64,000 nucleotides of DNA, taken from a virus. A model generated the notes under the pieces. That model saw only the letters and a list, made by a program, of their open reading frames with translations. It did no database searches and was not told where the DNA came from. Positions 1 through 59,703 of this stretch are shown piece by piece (the stretch's first letter is position 1; each line of letters starts with the position of its first letter). The translations under genes were made by a program, and so were the position numbers. The DNA lies in the IMG/VR virus record IMGVR_UViG_3300007644_000002, positions 18,715 to 82,714 of that record; one strand, given 5' to 3'.

Positions 1-755
1 ATATGAGTCTCATTATAACCGTGATGGTCTTGAGTAACTAACAACCTCTTAGAGATGACTTGAGTGGTAGGTGTAAGAATACCTTTACCATTCTTGTCAA
101 GCATATTGAACGGTTCGCCAATGTCGCGACAAAAGGTCAAAGTATCACACCCATGCCATGGATGTATAGCAGTATCAGATAACCCCAGATAGTTTACTTC
201 AGGTAGTGCCAGATGAGACGTGGTGTACGTTCTAAACAATCTCTGTAGGGTACAGTACGGGCCGCAGTTGATTGGAAAATTATTATTAACAAGAGTATGA
301 TTCGCCCAATGAGCAAACCGTCTATCTAGGGAATACATCCCCATAAACAAACCTATGTTGGCGTAAAGCATACTGTCCGACGCCTTCGCGAGAGATTTAA
401 ACACCTCGTATCGCTCAGGAATCAGATAGGTATCATGTTCTATAACCCAAAACTTCTCACCGGACTCTGCTTGTTGTCTCATGAGTTCCCAATGAGAACA
501 CATTCCTGCCTTCTCTGTAGGAGAGTGATCGTCCTTCGCGTTACCAGAATGTAGGTCGACTCCCATGAGACTAGCCTTCCAGTTGTAACGGTCTACATGT
601 TCTTGAAACGTATCAGACTCAGGAGTGATAGCATCAAACACTTCTATACCATCAATAAACCCATCGTCAATAGCACATTGAAAAGACTTCCGAGAAATCT
701 CAGCATACTCTTCTGACCTTTCATTACCCTTGATTACTATCTGTCTTACTTTCAA
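1..755 (-). CDS. Glycosyltransferase-like protein, partial (3' end outside window)
   Basis: Open frame of 251 codons that leaves the window at its C-terminal side, so the product is incomplete. I chose a TTG start at 755-753: it is preceded by a good Shine-Dalgarno (AGGAG, 6 bases upstream) and overlaps the stop of the upstream gene in the sequence TTGA, indicating translational coupling. Residues about 83-111 contain a conserved-looking SHWELMRQ segment followed by FWVIEHDTYLIP, which resembles the acidic metal-binding segment of family 25-like (LPS-type) glycosyltransferases. That family assignment is inference from one motif. It forms a pair with the next glycosyltransferase and probably acts on sugars of the host surface, virion or DNA; the acceptor is unknown. 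Confidence 0.6.
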   Translation of the reverse strand, partial: MKVRQIVIKGNERSEEYAEISRKSFQCAIDDGFIDGIEVFDAITPESDTFQEHVDRYNWKASLMGVDLHSGNAKDDHSPTEKAGMCSHWELMRQQAESGEKFWVIEHDTYLIPERYEVFKSLAKASDSMLYANIGLFMGMYSLDRRFAHWANHTLVNNNFPINCGPYCTLQRLFRTYTTSHLALPEVNYLGLSDTAIHPWHGCDTLTFCRDIGEPFNMLDKNGKGILTPTTQVISKRLLVTQDHHGYNETH

Positions 756-11969: not shown

Positions 11970-12575
11970 TTAATCAAAGAAATCTGAGAGGTCTGAGTCA
12001 ACATGTACCGCACGTCGTTTACGCATTTTCTTTTCTTCTTTTGCGTAAATCTTAAACTCTTGATCCGCAGATTTGACGGTGTCAATACGCAGGCGCAGAG
12101 TGTCGACTAAAGTGGATGGGGAATCCATGACGGAACCACCATTGTAAGAATCATTGTTATTGCTATCAACGAATTGGTCTATACCCGCTTCGGATATGAA
12201 CTTCATCTTAATATCTTGTTGCTTCTTCTCTTTTTGGATTCGTCGTAGAAACGCATACCAAGATATCTGAGTGAAGTATGCGAACGCGTTCGGTTTACCA
12301 GAACGAGTGGCAGCTTCAATATCATAGTTTTCAATTGCTTTAAGACAGTTCTCTACCGCATCCATTACCATTTCTTCACGGTAAGTGTAACGGACAAAGT
12401 TTGCTTTGTGTGATAGACCTTCTGATATGCGTAGGAAACATTTAGCAATGTAATCAGTGACCACCGGAATAGATTCACCCTTATCCTTGGCATATTTTAC
12501 TTGCGTACAATAATCTACTACAGACTCAGAGAACTCTCTGTTATTGACGTAATGTGGTTTTTCTTTTGGTTTCAT
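11970..12575 (-). CDS. 55: Late transcription sigma factor gp55
   Basis: A 201-residue gp55-type sigma factor (T4: 185). The region YREEMVMDAVENCLKAIENYD with NAFAYFTQISWYAFLRRIQKEKKQQ (about 75-125) corresponds to sigma region 2, which recognises the TATAAATA late promoter. It directs host RNA polymerase to the 12 exact late promoters seen elsewhere in this window. An early sigma-70 promoter lies directly upstream, matching its need to be made before late genes. Confidence 0.93.
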   Translation of the reverse strand: MKPKEKPHYVNNREFSESVVDYCTQVKYAKDKGESIPVVTDYIAKCFLRISEGLSHKANFVRYTYREEMVMDAVENCLKAIENYDIEAATRSGKPNAFAYFTQISWYAFLRRIQKEKKQQDIKMKFISEAGIDQFVDSNNNDSYNGGSVMDSPSTLVDTLRLRIDTVKSADQEFKIYAKEEKKMRKRRAVHVDSDLSDFFD

Positions 12576-12602: not shown

Positions 12603-12631
12603 ATTATACACGAGACCCGGCAGGGTGTCAA
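12603..12631 (-). promoter_or_regulatory. Perfect sigma-70-type early promoter for gene 55
   Basis: Minus strand TTGACA, 17-base spacer, TATAAT, 28 bases before the gene 55 ATG; the -35 overlaps the end of the cytidylyltransferase gene. Confidence 0.88.
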
Positions 12632-13071
12632 GGGTTAATACCATCTTTCATACCAATCAATGGGTCTTTCATAGCGACTCGTTTACGTAGGTCACTAGTG
12701 GAGAAACGATGGTCTCTCCTATTAAAGTATATCTCTATACCCCGTGCGGCACAAGTCGCACGTCCAGTGAAGGTCTTGTCTTTATACTCACTACCGATAA
12801 TTCGTACATCAATATCAACCATCTTGAGAATGTCTTCTAGGTCTGTTTCTGTCTGATAGGGAATGATTTCGTCAACGTACTTAACTGCGGAGAGTTGTGT
12901 GTGTCTTTCGACTAATGTTTGTACAGGAGAGTTTTTATTTTCTCTGTCTTTGGAGGGGTCTACTTGTATAGCACAAATGAGGTAATCACATTGTGTTTTC
13001 GCTTCGCGTAACATTGATATGTGGCCAGCGTGTAATAAATCAAAGGTGGAGGCGGTAAAACCAACTTTCAT
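12628..13071 (-). CDS. Cytidylyltransferase-like nucleotidyltransferase (TagD-like)
   Basis: A 147-residue HxGH nucleotidyltransferase. The HAGH motif (14-17) follows GFTASTFDLLHAGH, and the C-terminal FSTSDLRKR matches the second nucleotide-binding motif of glycerol-3-phosphate or choline-phosphate cytidylyltransferases. It should activate a phosphorylated alcohol or sugar phosphate to its CDP derivative; the substrate is uncertain. It may belong with the glycosyltransferase genes. Upstream of its start is a perfect sigma-70 promoter facing the opposite way (13101-13129). Confidence 0.85.
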   Translation of the reverse strand: MKVGFTASTFDLLHAGHISMLREAKTQCDYLICAIQVDPSKDRENKNSPVQTLVERHTQLSAVKYVDEIIPYQTETDLEDILKMVDIDVRIIGSEYKDKTFTGRATCAARGIEIYFNRRDHRFSTSDLRKRVAMKDPLIGMKDGINP

Positions 13072-13100: not shown

Positions 13101-13129
13101 TTGACACGGCGTCGTTTATAGTGTATAAT
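13101..13129 (+). promoter_or_regulatory. Perfect sigma-70-type promoter on the plus strand (copy A)
   Basis: TTGACA at 13101-13106, 17-base spacer, TATAAT at 13124-13129, on the plus strand where no genes are seen. From 13121 to 13142 the sequence is identical to 53095-53116, which carries a second such promoter. It would transcribe antisense into the end of the gene at 13159-13563 and uvsW. Confidence 0.75.
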
Positions 13130-13158
13130 CTACTTGTTGTCCGGAGGGGAGAATATAG

Positions 13159-13563
13159 CTAATGTTTCACTAGTCCTGAAGTATCAGAATCAATCAGTGA
13201 GTAGTTCTCCATATGATTGAACCACTCTTCGTCAGTCATATCATCTTGAAGGTCATCATCAGTAACAGTGCTATACGAATTCATCGAGTCAACTGCTATT
13301 GCGTACTGTTGAAGCATATCTTTAGAAGGTGTACATAAAGCAACAACCTTACTGTTCATCAATAATATAACATCCAATGGACTGTCTTGGTACGTCATCA
13401 AACTACGGAAGACAAAATATCTCTGACCATCCGAACCCATTCTATCCTCAAGGGTAAGACAATTTCTTACTGCTATAGAATCAACTTGCTCATCTAATAC
13501 GTCACAAATAACCTCTTCACCGGTAGACAGTTTAAGTTGTTTGATCGAAGACTGTATCATCAT
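13159..13563 (-). CDS. Sm-like fold small protein, function unknown
   Basis: A 134-residue protein next to uvsW and overlapping its 3' end by 32 bases. The N-terminal half (about 5-75) reads like a small beta barrel of the Sm/LSm type: KLSTGEEVICDVLDEQ then a VRNCLTLEDR strand and a RSLMTYQDSPLDVIL segment. The C-terminal 45 residues are acidic. Sm-like proteins bind RNA or proteins, but the match is weak and no function is claimed. The overlap with uvsW implies co-expression. Confidence 0.6.
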   Translation of the reverse strand: MMIQSSIKQLKLSTGEEVICDVLDEQVDSIAVRNCLTLEDRMGSDGQRYFVFRSLMTYQDSPLDVILLMNSKVVALCTPSKDMLQQYAIAVDSMNSYSTVTDDDLQDDMTDEEWFNHMENYSLIDSDTSGLVKH

Positions 13564-15064
13564 ATAATCCCTTTATAGGTTTAAGGTCAATGGGATATAT
13601 CTTGTAGGAAAATCCTTCCTTAGTATATATCTTAATCCTTTCGGCACTATGTTTCAGAGTAAAATTCTTATGGCTGCCCACATGGAGGTCATCAGCAACA
13701 TCGAAAAGCTTAGTAGTCCTACCATCGTCAGACTGACGAAGGCCCCTTCCAATTGATTGTAGTACCTTGACTTGGGACTTAGATGGGGTCGCGAATATAA
13801 TATTATGCAAATTGCGGATGTTGATGCCAGTGCTGAAAGTACCGAGAGAAGCAACAATAATTGAATCATTCTGAGTTTCTACAATCCCTCTTATTTGTTC
13901 ACGATCAGCAGCACCTACTTCACCGGAGACATAAAATACTTTACGATCTTCTCCGACCATGCTCCTGATCATCTCATACAATACCTTACCATGTTTCTCA
14001 ACGAATTGGAACATGACTAAGGTATTTCCTTTTTGGTCTATTGCAAGCTTACTTATAAACTTATTACGTGGTTCATATTGGACGATGTAATCCAGTTCAT
14101 CTTGATACTTCATATCTTTTATCATATTACACGCATCACTATGGTAGCGCAATAAGAGAATAGATATATCAAGATCGGCAAGCTGTTTACTTTTCTGTAA
14201 TTTCACGGTGCTAGTCACCGTAAAAGTCGGCCCGAATAAACCTTCTAACACCAATTTGTTAGTTTCCGTACCATCCAGTGTTCCTGTGAGACCAAAGCGA
14301 TATTTCGCCTCAGTACACTTGTCCATCATAGTAGAGAGAGACTTTGCTTTGAAAAGATGTACTTCATCCCCAAAGACAGTTTCAAACTGTTCAAACCACT
14401 CATGGTCAAATCTATAGATTGACTGCCACGTTGATATGATAATACGTTTGTCAGTGACTTTCTCTTTACCTGAGTAAATACGATGACAGTACTGACCTAC
14501 ATCATATCCGTAGTCTTCGAAGTCTTTATACATCTGTTCTACTAGAGATGTAGTAGGAACAATTACCAGTATATTACCTTGAGTAGCTTCTAGAGCATAA
14601 CGCATTAGGTTATAGATGATAAATGACTTACCGCTACCGGTGGGAGATAATAGAATAGAACGGTAGTTTTCTATACCGTGAGCAATTGCTTTATATTGAT
14701 AGTCTCTTGGTTCGTATGGACTATCCAGTGACGCTAGAAACTTAACTAGAGTTGGGTGATCGATGTCGTCCTTTGCGCTAGGTATACCATAGACTTCGTG
14801 CTCAAGTATCTCTAACTTATAGAATCTATCCGCGCAGAAACGACGTAGATGACTATAAAGTCCTACGTTAAGTTGTTTAGAAACCATGTTATAGAGACGG
14901 ATTTTTCCATCCCAGCGACGTGCTTTAAACGCGGGAGTCCACTTGGCGCCAGGCACCATGAAGGAGAAATACTCACGGAGTTCTGCTTCTTGAGCAGGGT
15001 GCGACTCAACCGCGAAGTAACTGTGGTTGACCATCCTGATTCGAATCTTGTTGTCTACGCTCAT
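13532..15064 (-). CDS. uvsW: UvsW DNA/RNA helicase
   Basis: A 510-residue superfamily 2 helicase matching T4 UvsW. After an N-terminal DNA-binding domain come motif I SPTGSGKS (140-147), motif II DEVH (233-236), FGLTGTLDG (motif III) and the C-terminal motif VI QSIGRGLRQ. UvsW unwinds branched recombination intermediates and R-loops and shuts off origin-dependent initiation. It is flanked by UvsY as in T4. A small ORF (15006-15158) overlaps its start. Confidence 0.95.
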   Translation of the reverse strand: MSVDNKIRIRMVNHSYFAVESHPAQEAELREYFSFMVPGAKWTPAFKARRWDGKIRLYNMVSKQLNVGLYSHLRRFCADRFYKLEILEHEVYGIPSAKDDIDHPTLVKFLASLDSPYEPRDYQYKAIAHGIENYRSILLSPTGSGKSFIIYNLMRYALEATQGNILVIVPTTSLVEQMYKDFEDYGYDVGQYCHRIYSGKEKVTDKRIIISTWQSIYRFDHEWFEQFETVFGDEVHLFKAKSLSTMMDKCTEAKYRFGLTGTLDGTETNKLVLEGLFGPTFTVTSTVKLQKSKQLADLDISILLLRYHSDACNMIKDMKYQDELDYIVQYEPRNKFISKLAIDQKGNTLVMFQFVEKHGKVLYEMIRSMVGEDRKVFYVSGEVGAADREQIRGIVETQNDSIIVASLGTFSTGINIRNLHNIIFATPSKSQVKVLQSIGRGLRQSDDGRTTKLFDVADDLHVGSHKNFTLKHSAERIKIYTKEGFSYKIYPIDLKPIKGLYDDTVFDQTT

Positions 15065-15202: not shown

Positions 15203-15649
15203 TTAACCACCTGCCTCAAATTGGCGCCACTTAATCATGTTACCAATTGTCTGGTGTCTCCATTTTAAAGTATCCACTATATTACTTAGAGTTTCAATAA
15301 GTGTCTTATAGTACGCAATCCGTTCCTCAGACTTTTGAATTTCTGGGTCTGCGTCGTAGTATAAATCCATATCACCTTTGAGTATACGAAGACCATTGAA
15401 GGGGTCTAAGTCCCAACCAGTAGCACGTAGTTCATCTTCGTCCATCTTACCGTTGTAGTACTTAAACTTTTTAAGTAAAAGAGTCTTCTGAGAGTTCTCA
15501 CAACGTTTGAGCTGTAACTTTGCGAGTGCGTGATATTGTAGATACTTTGCGTGTAACGACGGTGTGTGTCTAGAGACTTCGTCTAGTTGATGCTGAGGTA
15601 TAGTACAGTCTTCTGACCATTCTTTGAGAACGGTTTCCAAATCAATCAT
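15203..15649 (-). CDS. uvsY: Recombination mediator UvsY
   Basis: A 148-residue homologue of T4 UvsY (137), the mediator that loads UvsX recombinase on gp32-coated single-stranded DNA. The central KTLLLKKFKYYNGKMDEDEL and the C-terminal TLKWRHQTIGNMIKWRQFEAGG resemble the family, ending like T4 UvsY (RAFEAGK). An early promoter of near-consensus type sits just upstream, so it can be made with the replication genes. Confidence 0.9.
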   Translation of the reverse strand: MIDLETVLKEWSEDCTIPQHQLDEVSRHTPSLHAKYLQYHALAKLQLKRCENSQKTLLLKKFKYYNGKMDEDELRATGWDLDPFNGLRILKGDMDLYYDADPEIQKSEERIAYYKTLIETLSNIVDTLKWRHQTIGNMIKWRQFEAGG

Positions 15650-50523: not shown

Positions 50524-50604
50524 TAAACCCACTTATCATCCCATAATTTTAAGACTTTCTCGTATTTATAAGAATTCTTTTGTACGGGTTGATAAGTGGG
50601 TTTA
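50524..50604. repeat. 15-bp perfect inverted repeat enclosing a late promoter
   Basis: TAAACCCACTTATCA (50524-50538) and TGATAAGTGGGTTTA (50590-50604) are perfect complements, with CCC/GGG continuing after one mismatch. The 51-base interior holds the distal TATAAATA at 50563-50570. Confidence 0.75.
50563..50570 (-). promoter_or_regulatory. T4-type late promoter (TATAAATA), distal and inside an inverted repeat
   Basis: Second exact octamer, 62 bases upstream of the proximal one; a tandem late promoter for the repeat-protein gene. Confidence 0.78.
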
Positions 50605-52184: not shown

Positions 52185-53093
52185 CTACAACTCCATAACA
52201 GGTACCCTACTAGAGTGTAACCTGTTTTCGTTTTTTAATTTTGTTATTTCTTTCGCAAGTTCTTTCATCCAGTTTAAAAAACCTAGACCATTATTCTTTG
52301 CGCTTTCTACTGTGGCAATTCCAGACAATCTTGAATCATACATGTATGTCGGTTTTGTCTCGTCATGAACCACCATAGTCAACTCACCCTTTTCGTGAGC
52401 ATCTTTTAATTCTAAGTATTGGAGAGTATCCTCACCAACCACTAAATTCTTAAACCTATATGGAATAACCTTTCTAGACATAAATGTTATTCGTGTAGCA
52501 ATAGCATCCATACCCATTCCGTATTCTAAGTCCTTGATATATGATTGAAACGCTCGAATCTCCAAATCTGGAGTATCCATCCCATTTCTTAACATCAAGT
52601 CTACTACCATCTCTCCCTTACCTAGTTCACTCCAGTCAGATACTTCGGCGAACTGTCCATATTTAGACGTGAGTTCTTTGGGGTTGAGACTCAATCTACT
52701 GTCATCTAACGCCCTAGCTATGGAATTTTTATCTCCGAATCCTATAGAGAGAGCATTACTTAACGCTAATACGTCAGGTGCGTCATCTCTATTCAACAAC
52801 TCAGTATAACACCTTACACCCCTTCGTGTCAAGTAGTCATCACCATCAACTAATACCGCATAAGGAACTCCGTCTTTTTCGAATATATCTAAAAAACTAT
52901 TCTTTCCAGTTGCGGCAGTACCATCACTCTCTGTTATCATGTGACGGATATTGTTATCTTCGCAGTACGACTTTGCTTGTTCTGAAAACGTACTGTCTAA
53001 CGTATTAATTATTACTGTAGTATTGTCTTTAGGTAACGTATCAAATTGTCTAGCTAAAGAATACAAATTATGACTTGACAAAACATAAAACAT
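52185..53093 (-). CDS. Glycosyltransferase (family 2-like)
   Basis: A 302-residue GT-A protein with the DGDDYL motif (83-88) preceded by ATGKNSFLDIF, the same arrangement seen in the glycosyltransferase at 61105 (KGKNACLDVF ... DGDDFL), so the two are probably paralogues. The N-terminal region holds a Rossmann-like start. Acceptor unknown. Its first codons overlap the plus-strand promoter at 53075-53103. Confidence 0.75.
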   Translation of the reverse strand: MFYVLSSHNLYSLARQFDTLPKDNTTVIINTLDSTFSEQAKSYCEDNNIRHMITESDGTAATGKNSFLDIFEKDGVPYAVLVDGDDYLTRRGVRCYTELLNRDDAPDVLALSNALSIGFGDKNSIARALDDSRLSLNPKELTSKYGQFAEVSDWSELGKGEMVVDLMLRNGMDTPDLEIRAFQSYIKDLEYGMGMDAIATRITFMSRKVIPYRFKNLVVGEDTLQYLELKDAHEKGELTMVVHDETKPTYMYDSRLSGIATVESAKNNGLGFLNWMKELAKEITKLKNENRLHSSRVPVMEL

Positions 53094-53103
53094 CGTGTAT
53101 AAT
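53075..53103 (+). promoter_or_regulatory. Perfect sigma-70-type promoter on the plus strand (copy B)
   Basis: TTGACA at 53075-53080, 17-base spacer, TATAAT at 53098-53103. Its core and first 13 downstream bases are identical to copy A at 13121-13142. It overlaps the first codons of the minus-strand glycosyltransferase and would transcribe antisense through 53131-54558. Confidence 0.75.
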
Positions 53104-53130
53104 CTACTTGTTGTCCAGAGGGATAATATA

Positions 53131-54558
53131 CTAGCCTAAGAATCCCATTATAACTCTCCTTGTGTTATTACCATCATAGATGCTGATAACGTTATTAGTG
53201 AGTTCCATTCTTTCACCAGTTTGGCTAGTACCTATATCTAGTGATCCTGTAACTTTGGCATTCGATAATAATACTTCATTACCATCAATCGTGAATGGTT
53301 GAACTTCATTGTTATTTGCGTTAACAAATCTGAAAGTGTCAGCAGTAAGTGTGAAGTCAGCAGTTGCGCCATCATTTCCAAACTTAATACCCGCAACTCG
53401 TGGATTAGCTTCTGTTCCCGCAAGAAGGTCTAGTGTCCACAATGCGGTAGTAGTACCAGCACTATCAACAAACGCAGAGAACTCTTGTCTTACTGCGGCA
53501 ATATCAGAATCAATCGCGGCATTTAAGTCTGTTATCAGTTCTGATCGAACCGAAGTCACACGGTCGTCTACTGTCTCAATCTGAGTAACAAGATCACTAG
53601 TTGCTTGAGCAACCGCAGTTGTTGTGATATTACCTTGTAAATCTCTAATGAAAACAGCATTGTCTAGTTGTAGAGTTTTTGCTGAAAGCGATGTAACCTG
53701 ACCACCATTATATGATACAGAAGTCGCGAGAAGTTCTCGTGCGTCAGTCTCCGCATCTATTCTAGCACCAAGATCAGAATCTAATATAATTAAGTCGGTT
53801 TGTAACTCAACGACCTTACCCGCTTCAACAACTAACTTGTCACTGTCCGCATCAAGTCGAGCATATAAATCCTCAAGACCTGCTGCCAATGCTGCTTCAA
53901 TTTGTTCTGGGGTAAACTCAATACCACCGGCAATAAACTGATCCAAAGTTAGACCAATTGAATCCAATCTCGATATAGTGGTAACAATACCATCACTGTT
54001 CACGTCGGTACGTGTTGTTAACTGACTTATACCTGAAGTGTTTAACTGAATTAAGTCGCCAAGGTCACTGTTAGCTAAAAGTAAACTGGATTCCACTGAG
54101 TCGATAGCACCAGCAAGAATATGTATCTCATCACTGTTCGCATTGACTCTTGATATGAGAGTATTGGTGGCATTCGCAATTGCGTCCGCAAGTAGGTCAG
54201 AGTCCACACCATCCAGAACCAAGTTTTCGATGGATGCGTTAGTCTCCGTGATAGCTTGCGATAAACTAGTTATCCCATCACTATTAACATCAACTCGTGA
54301 TGTCAACTGAAGTAGTCCACTTGCGTTCGCTGCGATATCAGAATCCAGATAACTTACATCAACGCTAAGGTCGAACTGGTCTAGATATTCTTGGTTAATG
54401 ACCGATAGAAAGTAATCTGAGTCAAGGATACCATTAACAATAGTAGTGAGCTCATTAACATCAATAGAGCTACTATCTACTAACTGAAAGTTGTCATTAA
54501 TTTTTAAAATCGCAGCGTTAATATTATCTGCTAGATTAATTAACTGTATATTACTCAT
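53131..54558 (-). CDS. Tail tip/fibre protein with DUF1983-like C-terminus
   Basis: A 475-residue protein. Residues about 1-300 are heptad-rich (LAD-N-NAAILKINDNFQLVDSS; long Ser/Asp/Leu helices), a trimeric shaft. The end (about 370-475) has GTEANPRVAGIKFGNDG, ADTFRFVNANNNEVQPFTIDGNEVLLSNAKV and a final RRVIMGFLG, matching the C-terminal DUF1983-type domain of lambda J-like host-specificity proteins. It is likely at the distal end of the tail. Overlaps the 79-residue gene by 8 bases. Confidence 0.75.
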   Translation of the reverse strand: MSNIQLINLADNINAAILKINDNFQLVDSSSIDVNELTTIVNGILDSDYFLSVINQEYLDQFDLSVDVSYLDSDIAANASGLLQLTSRVDVNSDGITSLSQAITETNASIENLVLDGVDSDLLADAIANATNTLISRVNANSDEIHILAGAIDSVESSLLLANSDLGDLIQLNTSGISQLTTRTDVNSDGIVTTISRLDSIGLTLDQFIAGGIEFTPEQIEAALAAGLEDLYARLDADSDKLVVEAGKVVELQTDLIILDSDLGARIDAETDARELLATSVSYNGGQVTSLSAKTLQLDNAVFIRDLQGNITTTAVAQATSDLVTQIETVDDRVTSVRSELITDLNAAIDSDIAAVRQEFSAFVDSAGTTTALWTLDLLAGTEANPRVAGIKFGNDGATADFTLTADTFRFVNANNNEVQPFTIDGNEVLLSNAKVTGSLDIGTSQTGERMELTNNVISIYDGNNTRRVIMGFLG

Positions 54559-57700: not shown

Positions 57701-59703
57701 GTGTAAGATTTAGCACAAAAGAAACCACCCGATGAGCTAGAGTGTTGGAAGTGTGAGAAGATTACTTGAATCTCTACATTAACACCAGTCGGGGTTGAGT
57801 AGCCAGGCTTAACATACAATCGTGTCATGTCATAGTAGTTATCACGTTGTCCACCATCGAAGTCAACTTGATATGTGATATCATCAGCATCTTCCCAAGC
57901 GGTACTATTAGATGATCTTACCTTAACAGATTCTAAAGATACCCCGTCAATTACACCTAGGTCTATAGGTCGTATTGCCCAAGACGCGTCTGGTCGAGTC
58001 GCTACGACTGTTAGAGACTGTAATGATTTAGTTCTAGGCGCTGCGGTTATCTCTTCATAACTAATTATATCATACGAAGTACTTGGTGTCAATCCAGTAA
58101 TATTATTACTTTCAATAACAACATCAGTACGAACAGGGCCATTAGTCTCCGCAATCAACCACTGACTGAACTCGACACTGTTCGCTGGCATGGAAATAGT
58201 ACCACTGCCATTTGAAGTTAGTCTATAAAATTTCTGAGCAGTGTAAACGATATTTGAAATAGTATCAGGTTTAGCAGCAACACTAGGTAGAGGGAATAAT
58301 AGATTATTATCCGCAGTACCATAGACACCACTAAGATTTGAATTACTGGTCAATGGTATTTCATTACCACTAGATGCTTCTACTAAATGAGTTACATTAG
58401 AGAAGTTATATTGAATCTGCGTCGAAGGATTTTTATTCATTCTGATGTTGAATATATATGCGCGATATCCAACTTGGTCTAATTGTAATCCTCGTAGGTT
58501 AGCATAACCAAGAAGAATATTACCTTCGTCTCTGAGTTCTAATCGACCGAATGTGCTGATATCACCTAAACCCTGAGAACCAACGTCATCTAGGTCTACG
58601 TATATCCAGTTACCAAAAATAGCAGGAACGTTCTCATTAAGTTTTACGCGTAGAGCAGAGTCTCCAGTTGTTTTAGGTACCTGAAGAGTAGATGCGCCTA
58701 CGTCCAAACGATAACCGTCCACGTAAGCAATACCTTCTGACACATCTACATTAAAAGTATTGGCGTCTTTGTTTTCAAAGATTGCGGTAAAGTCTGCTAC
58801 TACGTAATCGCCCGACTCTTCTTTTGTGCGTTGTGCCAGTAAAGAGTTGATGCGGTTGTACGCATCAAAGGAATTAACTTCTCGTGTAATAACACCGTTA
58901 ACCACACGTGCGATAAATACGAAGTTTTCTTCTTCTAGTACTTTATCTCGTGTAGTAGGAATAAGTTTAATCTTGTAACGATCTGCGCCAGGAGCACTGA
59001 CATCGGGTAACTGTCCTTGGTTGTCAAAAAGACTATCATCTTCAGCTGAAGAAACGATAGACTGCTGGACTAGAAATCCTAGGTCTGCGGTTGGGGTTCC
59101 ACTATACTTGTCAATGAAAGCACTACCGCCTTCTACATAGACGAAGTGTCCCTGAACAAAGAAGTCTCCTTCCGCAAGATGTGCCTTAGTGGCCTTACCC
59201 GCGCATGGGTGTTCTGCTGTATTGCTAGCAACAACCATGTTGATTCCAGTAGTAGTACCATCAGAAAAACGCAAACTCTGTGATGCGAGAACACGTGGAG
59301 CAACAGAATCGTCAAGAACCTGTGCGTTCAAAGTGTCCGTGTATTTAACATACAGTGTTATTGGATCATTATTCTCACTGTCCACGATTTCTAAAACTGT
59401 GAATACTACAGAACCGTTGGTGACTTCCCTGCCGACGATATCAGTGTAGATGCTGGAGGGACTTAACCGGATATACTCTAATGAGTTATCAACAGTCGCG
59501 CCGCCTGGATTTACCATCGCACCTTCTTTGAAGATGTTTCTACCAAATCTAGCAATTTCTTCATGAATCATTCGTTGCGATTCGGTTAACTCACGTGCTT
59601 GAAGAGCACGTCCCGAGTTGAAAAGGACACGGTAGTATCCATCTTCTTTTTTATAGAAGTCTCGGTAAGTCTCTTTAAATGTTTGGTTTGTAAAATCTGC
59701 CAT
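54790..59703 (-). CDS. Very large baseplate/tail protein (DUF4815 type)
   Basis: A 1637-residue virion protein. The N-terminal domain (about 1-300) opens FKETYRDFYKKEDGYYRVLFNSGRALQARELTESQ, the hallmark of DUF4815 structural proteins of T4-like marine phages. The middle carries repeated beta domains; the C-terminal about 250 residues are beta-rich with Thr/Ser. It probably contributes to the baseplate periphery or fibre attachment, as baseplate gp8-type is encoded next door. No enzymatic motif seen. Confidence 0.85.
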   Translation of the reverse strand: MADFTNQTFKETYRDFYKKEDGYYRVLFNSGRALQARELTESQRMIHEEIARFGRNIFKEGAMVNPGGATVDNSLEYIRLSPSSIYTDIVGREVTNGSVVFTVLEIVDSENNDPITLYVKYTDTLNAQVLDDSVAPRVLASQSLRFSDGTTTGINMVVASNTAEHPCAGKATKAHLAEGDFFVQGHFVYVEGGSAFIDKYSGTPTADLGFLVQQSIVSSAEDDSLFDNQGQLPDVSAPGADRYKIKLIPTTRDKVLEEENFVFIARVVNGVITREVNSFDAYNRINSLLAQRTKEESGDYVVADFTAIFENKDANTFNVDVSEGIAYVDGYRLDVGASTLQVPKTTGDSALRVKLNENVPAIFGNWIYVDLDDVGSQGLGDISTFGRLELRDEGNILLGYANLRGLQLDQVGYRAYIFNIRMNKNPSTQIQYNFSNVTHLVEASSGNEIPLTSNSNLSGVYGTADNNLLFPLPSVAAKPDTISNIVYTAQKFYRLTSNGSGTISMPANSVEFSQWLIAETNGPVRTDVVIESNNITGLTPSTSYDIISYEEITAAPRTKSLQSLTVVATRPDASWAIRPIDLGVIDGVSLESVKVRSSNSTAWEDADDITYQVDFDGGQRDNYYDMTRLYVKPGYSTPTGVNVEIQVIFSHFQHSSSSGGFFCAKSYTGMDIQDIPSHTLTNGSVVKLGDSLDFRPSVATSSTFTVTPLPQNASSITVPSVSYYSPRIDMLVVNATDSRGDIGFGELQVISGQASEQPKEPIVPVGALPLFKVELGAYSHQTSDVITTKISNKRYTMKDIGKLEEGIENLYEITSLSFLESNTNSLDVLDAQGLNRTKAGFIADNFNTFDYSDIEHPDYRASVDPEGLMGASFREQAVRLKYDATDLTNTITRKGDIVTLPFTDVAMISQELATGIMNINPFAVITQNGHLVLSPSTDEWVETKFLPDIMQRVVRRINTYLPSFFTRRRFRVQSSTTSRTITEYIGRRVMNIEIIPFMRSRKINFRVQGLRPNTQMYPVFGNKVVNDWVRQEPTFTNFSDDPTEYGSEYISATEYPTALGGKSILTTNSEGELAGSFFLPNTPTINFRTGRQEFKLLDVNNSDESVATAVSRAGYTAVGTLETVQRTVRSTRLIETTYWRDPLAQTFIVDQVENPNGLFITKVDIFVESKDSVIPMQVQIRPVENGVPTSRIVPGSVKFINPSNINVVPFDNTTEMSDVVAGKTTIEFDEPIYLTSGEEYALVLLAESVEYNVYTAQTYEYVVGQSRSARVSRQPTLGSLFLSQNGSTWTPDQTKDLMFNLYRADFESAGVLELKNSELPKVTLDINPFETTLGSSIVFVHHEGHGFSNNDGVLISGVASAVGGVIADSINGYHNVINPTWAGYTINTGVAATASAVGGGSNVVASQQVMFDQFIPQVQTLIPNMTSIDSTIEKTLGDSYGTTRTTRPQKLDYTTKSHQVVLNELNVNDYPAVIATQANAADTLSLTLNLTTGDSKVSPVVDLQRVSLITLENVIDGSDAAQHITKPVAVDESSVGLKIIFAAHRDVGVEFDVYVRTSLTEDAMYEVDGEGVPVIGWNQVTIDSPLPTDDDPETYRDYEYTVEADAFNVFQIKIVMSATNSSKSPTITDLRAIALVI

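Follow-up and report, generated by a model that had tools for sequence, protein, structure and literature searches.

Comparative sequence analysis indicates that a sigma70 promoter on the plus strand of the 64,000-nt stretch of viral DNA analysed here (the window), together with its first transcribed bases, is almost certainly this phage's version of an element found across its family: a near-consensus sigma70 promoter followed by ~25 transcribed bases, placed beside the gene for an Sm-like protein and uvsW. We refer to this promoter and its leader as copy A. The source record covers part of a T4-like marine phage genome of the Kyanoviridae type, in which uvsY, uvsW, gp55 and tail genes were recognised and for which the nearest named phage, as judged by UvsW, is C48C1 (Kyanoviridae; 81% identity). 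The Kyanoviridae, which are T4-like and infect marine cyanobacteria and Pelagibacter, rank among the most abundant phages of the sea. As the initial annotation had it, the main genes of the window all lie on the minus strand, where their order around the element is uvsY, uvsW, the 134-aa (Sm-like) gene, copy A, a cytidylyltransferase-like gene, gp55, gp47 and gp46. The cytidylyltransferase-like gene is an insertion confined to one clade. The features referred to below are:

11970-12575, minus strand: gp55, late sigma factor (PHROG 234)
12631-12603, minus strand: gp55's own sense promoter
12628-13071, minus strand: cytidylyltransferase-like gene (Pfam CTP_transf_like), between copy A and gp55
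13101-13129, plus strand: copy A promoter, TTGACA-17-TATAAT, antisense to all neighbouring genes
13130-13158, plus strand: copy A leader, CTACTTGTTGTCCGGAGGGGAGAATATAG, comprising the discriminator and predicted first transcribed bases, G-rich and stopping at the stop codon of the next gene
13159-13563, minus strand: gene for a predicted Sm/LSm-like (Hfq-fold) protein of 134 aa, with copy A directed into its 3' end
13532-15064, minus strand: uvsW, R-loop/branch helicase (Pfam UvsW_N and helicase domains), next in the predicted antisense path
15203-15649, minus strand: uvsY (Pfam UvsY), farther down the predicted antisense path
53075-53103, plus strand: copy B promoter, TTGACA-17-TATAAT, antisense to the tail-tip gene at 53131-54558
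53104-53130, plus strand: copy B leader, CTACTTGTTGTCCAGAGGGATAATATA, ending at the stop codon of 53131-54558

Copy A and copy B alike match the sigma70 consensus at 12/12 positions, which is beyond chance. The perfect plus-strand promoter that had been annotated was confirmed as an exact TTGACA-17-TATAAT at 13101-13129 (TTGACA, 13101-13106; TATAAT, 13124-13129; spacer, 17 nt), and transcription would be expected to start at the position predicted before, ~13136. The conserved unit at copy A spans ~13101-13158. Perfect TTGACA-15..19-TATAAT sites number seven in the window against 0.18 expected from shuffling, five of them on the minus strand and two on the plus strand (13101 and 53075). One perfect TTGACA-17-TATAAT on the minus strand (58064-58092) lies within a 1637-aa ORF, distant from any gene start. 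A separate feature of the window is an inverted repeat (50524-50545 and 50583-50604; 22-nt arms, 91% complementary, 37 nt between them) upstream of a 1675-aa gene.

The identity between the two plus-strand copies (13121-13142 and 53095-53116) was reproduced at 22/22 bases and had zero matches in shuffled sequence even with 3 mismatches; a search for the shared word elsewhere gave no third copy in the 82.7-kb record, even allowing three mismatches. The similar GAGGG element noted downstream is part of a likeness that runs on as (G/A)GAGGG...AATATA, with small changes, to the minus-strand stop codon in both copies. Copy B, ~28 nt from the stop codon of the tail-tip gene, was seen only in the window's own species, and its gene was likewise found only within that species. 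The start of the gene at 52185-53093 overlaps copy B, and a homologue of this gene (35% over 254 aa) sits between gp47 and gp55 in a separate sequence (L169). This homologue points to mobility of the gene at 52185-53093, and promoter copy B may have travelled with it.

Conservation beside the Sm-like gene

A search with exact 19-mers of the element returned almost exclusively the same species plus one strain (L016), in which the 134-aa protein is 85% identical and yet the 29-nt leader is identical at 29/29 positions and both hexamers are unchanged. Taken with the 22 nt common to copies A and B, this bears out the earlier proposal that conservation reaches into the transcribed part. BLAST of the element against named phages gave no match, and loci retrieved by means of the cytidylyltransferase protein had antisense promoters of quite different sequence at the same spot. 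A pattern scan of IMG/VR yielded, among the matches listed, 43 loci in the vicinity of uvsW/gp55; at 41 of these the match is antisense and lies in this gap. The motif GGG-N-AATATA was rejected as a specific signature, as a control scan with its last motif scrambled (GGG-N-ATAATA) gave at least 26 antisense matches at the same locus; AATATA alone is not diagnostic, and the recurring part is therefore the promoter with its G-run.

To avoid selection by pattern, we assembled an unbiased set of IMG/VR loci fetched via the gp55 protein alone and scored an antisense promoter where at least 10/12 consensus positions matched and the -10 lay 15-60 nt beyond the stop codon. By this measure an antisense sigma70 promoter is present at 59 of 74 Sm-like gene ends compared to 18 of 443 other gene ends, an enrichment of about 20-fold. 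Among named Kyanoviridae, the element was found in all 14 inspected (phages of Synechococcus, Prochlorococcus, Pelagibacter and Methylophilales, plus C48C1), albeit weakly in Melnitz, where the -35 is poor. In syn9 (~123710-123740) the antisense and gp55 promoters have back-to-back -35 boxes (TTGACAAACTTGTCAA), and the same arrangement of antisense and gp55 -35 boxes is seen in S-CREM1 (~152150-152200; GTCTTGTCAAG...CTTGACAAGAC).

We further collected 106 loci with distinct leaders, selected for meeting the 10/12 cut. In 105 of them the -10 lies beyond the stop codon of the Sm-like gene, at a median distance of 32 nt (quartiles 28-34), and in 33 of the 106 gp55 is more than 250 nt from the -10. 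Since the distance to the Sm-like stop codon is kept even where gp55 is far away, the element belongs to the Sm-like/uvsW side. This bears on whether the promoter is a by-product, that is, upstream antisense firing of the gp55 promoter or a chance consensus in A+T-rich DNA. The back-to-back -35 boxes in syn9, S-CREM1 and C48C1 would suit such an origin, but it is very improbable given the ~20-fold enrichment, the conserved leader and the 33 loci at which inserted genes displace gp55 and the element stays with the Sm-like gene; a divergent partner of the gp55 promoter is ruled out on the last ground. Overall, the occurrence of an antisense promoter at the same place in nearly every relative examined argues for a conserved functional start site, and the annotated promoter antisense to the gene at 13159 and uvsW thus appears, from its sequence, to be a strong host-type promoter conserved family-wide.

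The gene immediately beneath the promoter encodes a protein that is annotated in relatives as ‘methylamine utilization’ or ‘RNA-binding’. A profile built from 48 homologues matched PDB entry 3by7 (E 2.5e-16), and an AlphaFold model of the 134-aa product aligned with the same structure at a TM score of 0.81-0.88 normalised by target length (Foldseek E 1.4e-5); one homologue matches Pfam Sm_like at 1.1e-6, slightly below the cut-off. By profile and by predicted structure the product has an Sm/LSm fold, and RNA binding is putative. Even very diverged homologues of the Sm-like protein share an acidic tail and end in a recurrent (T)(I/L)H motif, which could reflect contact with a protein or a constraint imposed by the antisense start that overlaps it.

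The leader and its second copies

Across the 106 loci the predicted RNA begins with 26 bases that are rich in G (GC skew +0.25). Beyond ~+26 its strand runs antisense to a coding gene and is biased towards C (skew -0.20); A+T content at +27 to +126 is about 66%, no higher than upstream. Terminators were found within the first 326 nt at 11 of the 106 loci, compared to 2-8 in shuffled sequences, and no terminator-like hairpin was found on the plus strand at copy A. The earlier suggestion of a small regulatory RNA with a defined end therefore fits poorly: terminators are scarcely enriched, and past ~+26 the RNA would be only the antisense of a fast-diverging gene. The transcription-collision device suggested alongside it may still apply. 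A short plus-strand coding ORF was considered and rejected, as copy A gives only MFH after a Shine-Dalgarno-like GGAGGGG and copy B lacks an ATG at this point. For the window's clade, a hairpin at the 5' end of the RNA was likewise discarded as not significant, and Rfam gave nothing above the gathering score at the locus (best match sR5, 19.4 bits against a cut-off of 40, on the other strand).

The leaders of cyanophages and pelagiphages have a dyad whose centre falls on the expected start. Stems of 5 bp or more are present in 21 of 110 leaders, compared to 1.1 (maximum 4) in shuffles, and in none or one when the windows are shifted by 5-15 nt. The arms differ (AACGG/CCGTT, GACTA/TAGTC, ACCCA/TGGGT), and their pairs covary above both controls, in one geometry. 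As the left arm precedes the expected start, the dyad would be a feature of the DNA and not a hairpin in the RNA. The start-centred dyad is not significant in the clade of the window, which is marked instead by a G-run and an A+T-rich end.

Of 12 complete genomes, six contain a second promoter with the same phage-specific leader, so that there are one or two copies per genome; a second copy was not seen in the other half. The leader of the second copy matches that of the uvsW-side copy at 21/21 positions in S-SKS1, 21/22 in S-T4, 20/21 in S-H38, 21/23 in Melnitz, 16/19 in syn9 and 15/20 (with a one-base indel) in S-CREM1. The second copies of the first three, at record coordinates 169871 (S-SKS1), 15164 (S-T4) and 7987 (S-H38), each precede a different early gene. 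All six are sense-oriented and upstream of varied early genes, sometimes near tRNA genes; the genes that follow include a GIY-YIG endonuclease in two cases, a helicase and small ORFs, and a common gene behind them was sought and not found. A leader that is identical within a genome and divergent between genomes points to recognition in trans or to gene conversion. That the second copies share the leader and not the surroundings is what would be expected if the element itself, rather than the gene below it, is recognised.

These properties could describe a regulated class of early promoters with no replication role, in which a dimeric regulator specific to each phage uses the start-site dyad as its operator and controls one antisense and one sense promoter. 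Leaders identical within and divergent between genomes, and a dyad centred on the start with compensatory changes, are in keeping with this. We nevertheless give it a low probability, as the window's own clade has no dyad, the second copies have no common gene behind them and half of the complete genomes show one copy only. The second copies also weigh on the proposal that the opposed promoter, lying past uvsY, uvsW and the Sm-like gene, acts as a roadblock that keeps transcription from running on into gp55 and the genes after it, either through head-on collision or by means of a paused polymerase. The site between two co-directional units, just past a stop codon, is suited to such a function, and a -10-like GATAAT in the leaders of several phages could give a promoter-proximal pause. 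However, a roadblock leaves unexplained why, in six complete genomes, other genes are preceded by this leader in sense orientation, and we consider it improbable.

A possible origin of replication or antisense control

The reading we favour, tentatively and by analogy with the antisense origins of T4, is that copy A is an origin-type early start for host polymerase whose RNA primes replication. This reading goes beyond the initial annotation and agrees with the data at least as well as the proposals made there. Just after infection, unmodified host RNA polymerase would initiate at copy A, which is predicted to fire back into the Sm-like gene, uvsW and uvsY; the short G-rich start of the transcript would favour an RNA-DNA hybrid, and the RNA would then prime leading-strand synthesis. 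Shut-off would come later, through the loss of early transcription and the action of the late helicase UvsW, encoded next door. In the GenBank entry for T4, the primer of oriE is annotated as complementary to the transcript of gene 5 and that of oriG as lying opposite gene 34, with oriF placed at uvsY. Both oriE and oriG of T4 are antisense promoters within late genes. In T4, oriE is of early mode and UvsW unwinds origin R-loops, and we found that an antisense-strand TATAAT precedes the oriE coordinate by 7 nt. The promoter of copy A is opposite in strand to the surrounding genes, as in the oriE/oriG type of origin, and it is this precedent, with the same logic as the present element, that leads us to favour an origin-type role. 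The broader statement that the element is a conserved Kyanoviridae origin, consisting of a host-polymerase antisense promoter and a start-site code that is specific to each phage and common to the origins within its genome, we regard as doubtful.

Several observations run against an origin. The C-biased strand past ~+26 is poor for long R-loops, A+T content is not raised there and a second copy was not seen in six of the 12 complete genomes; moreover, a constant position beside the same gene is equally expected under antisense control. Weakly in favour, the best skew-based origin lies at most 13 kb from the element in 7 of 12 genomes, but this signal is confounded by the adjacent late-gene module, and in P-SSM2, C48C1, S-CREM1 and S-T4 the best origin is at least 50 kb away. 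GC skew, which looked good at first, was therefore dropped as proof of an origin: the signal is weak at 4-fold sites and is probably driven by gp23 and the late module.

Antisense control of the Sm-like gene and uvsW is the main rival to the origin reading and almost as likely, even if on balance we think it unlikely. Early antisense transcription over the two genes would hold both low until late in infection, when UvsW is needed, acting in cis by RNA pairing, in which the Sm-like protein may join, or by transcription interference. The element consistently opposes one and the same gene pair and keeps a constant distance from the stop codon, the product of its target gene is of an RNA-binding-type fold, T4 makes UvsW late, and an antisense RNA, CfrI, is known in cyanophage S-PM2. 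On the other hand, there is hardly any enrichment of terminators, and the second copies with the same leader are mostly sense-oriented and before unrelated genes, which argues that the leader is not tied to the Sm-like/uvsW target. The element links the Sm-like gene and the R-loop helicase gene uvsW to a single conserved start of antisense transcription. Because it is family-wide, holds a constant position and has a leader that agrees between copies within genomes and differs between genomes, it is a ready experimental target.

Relation to known systems

Antisense early promoters, antisense origins and cyanophage antisense RNA (CfrI) are already known. A literature search gave no description of a family-wide antisense element; transcript-start mapping of Syn9, reportedly by Doron in 2016, was outside the reach of that search. 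The search also returned no experimental mapping of replication origins in the Kyanoviridae. For Syn9, a prediction of a single theta origin is cited in one review.

The same motif also led to a marine podovirus group. Seven podoviruses (L124, L157, L162, L177, L182, L201 and L130), with T7-type primase/helicase and PolA, have a similar promoter-leader at the switch between late and early strands, followed by ~0.4-1.6 kb without long ORFs; BLAST of this region against named phages gave no match. A G-tract after A+T-rich DNA (such as TATATACTAGGTGGGGGTGGGGTGGG) occurs there at ~+135 to +300 from the promoter and is reminiscent of CSB II of the mitochondrial R-loop origin. This group could hold a separate candidate R-loop origin, as a second case.

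Among T4 origins, oriE is like the present element in having a host-type early promoter opposite late genes and a start ~7 nt after TATAAT. In contrast, oriE is inside gene 5 and has iterons and repEA/repEB, whereas the present element is just past the Sm-like gene and has a G-rich or dyad leader, and a replication role for it is inferred. The oriG (ori(34)) primer is antisense to a tail-fibre gene, much as copy B is antisense to the tail-tip gene, and oriF (ori(uvsY)) is at uvsY, a neighbour gene of copy A. Both oriG and oriF differ from the present element in having MotA-dependent middle promoters rather than a full sigma70 consensus, and the T4 oriF primer is the sense uvsY transcript.

CfrI, an expressed antisense RNA of about 225 nt at psbA of cyanophage S-PM2, resembles the present case as antisense transcription in a T4-like cyanophage; the promoter here is likewise directed into the opposite strand of a gene. 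It differs in belonging to a separate locus (psbA) and in being an expressed RNA, whereas the present element is family-wide and known from its sequence. PeSLs are mobile early-promoter cassettes of T4-type phages in which a promoter is joined to a terminator stem-loop. The likeness lies in repeated early promoter units in T4-type genomes; unlike PeSLs, the present element is without a terminator stem-loop, occupies a fixed locus across the family and is antisense.
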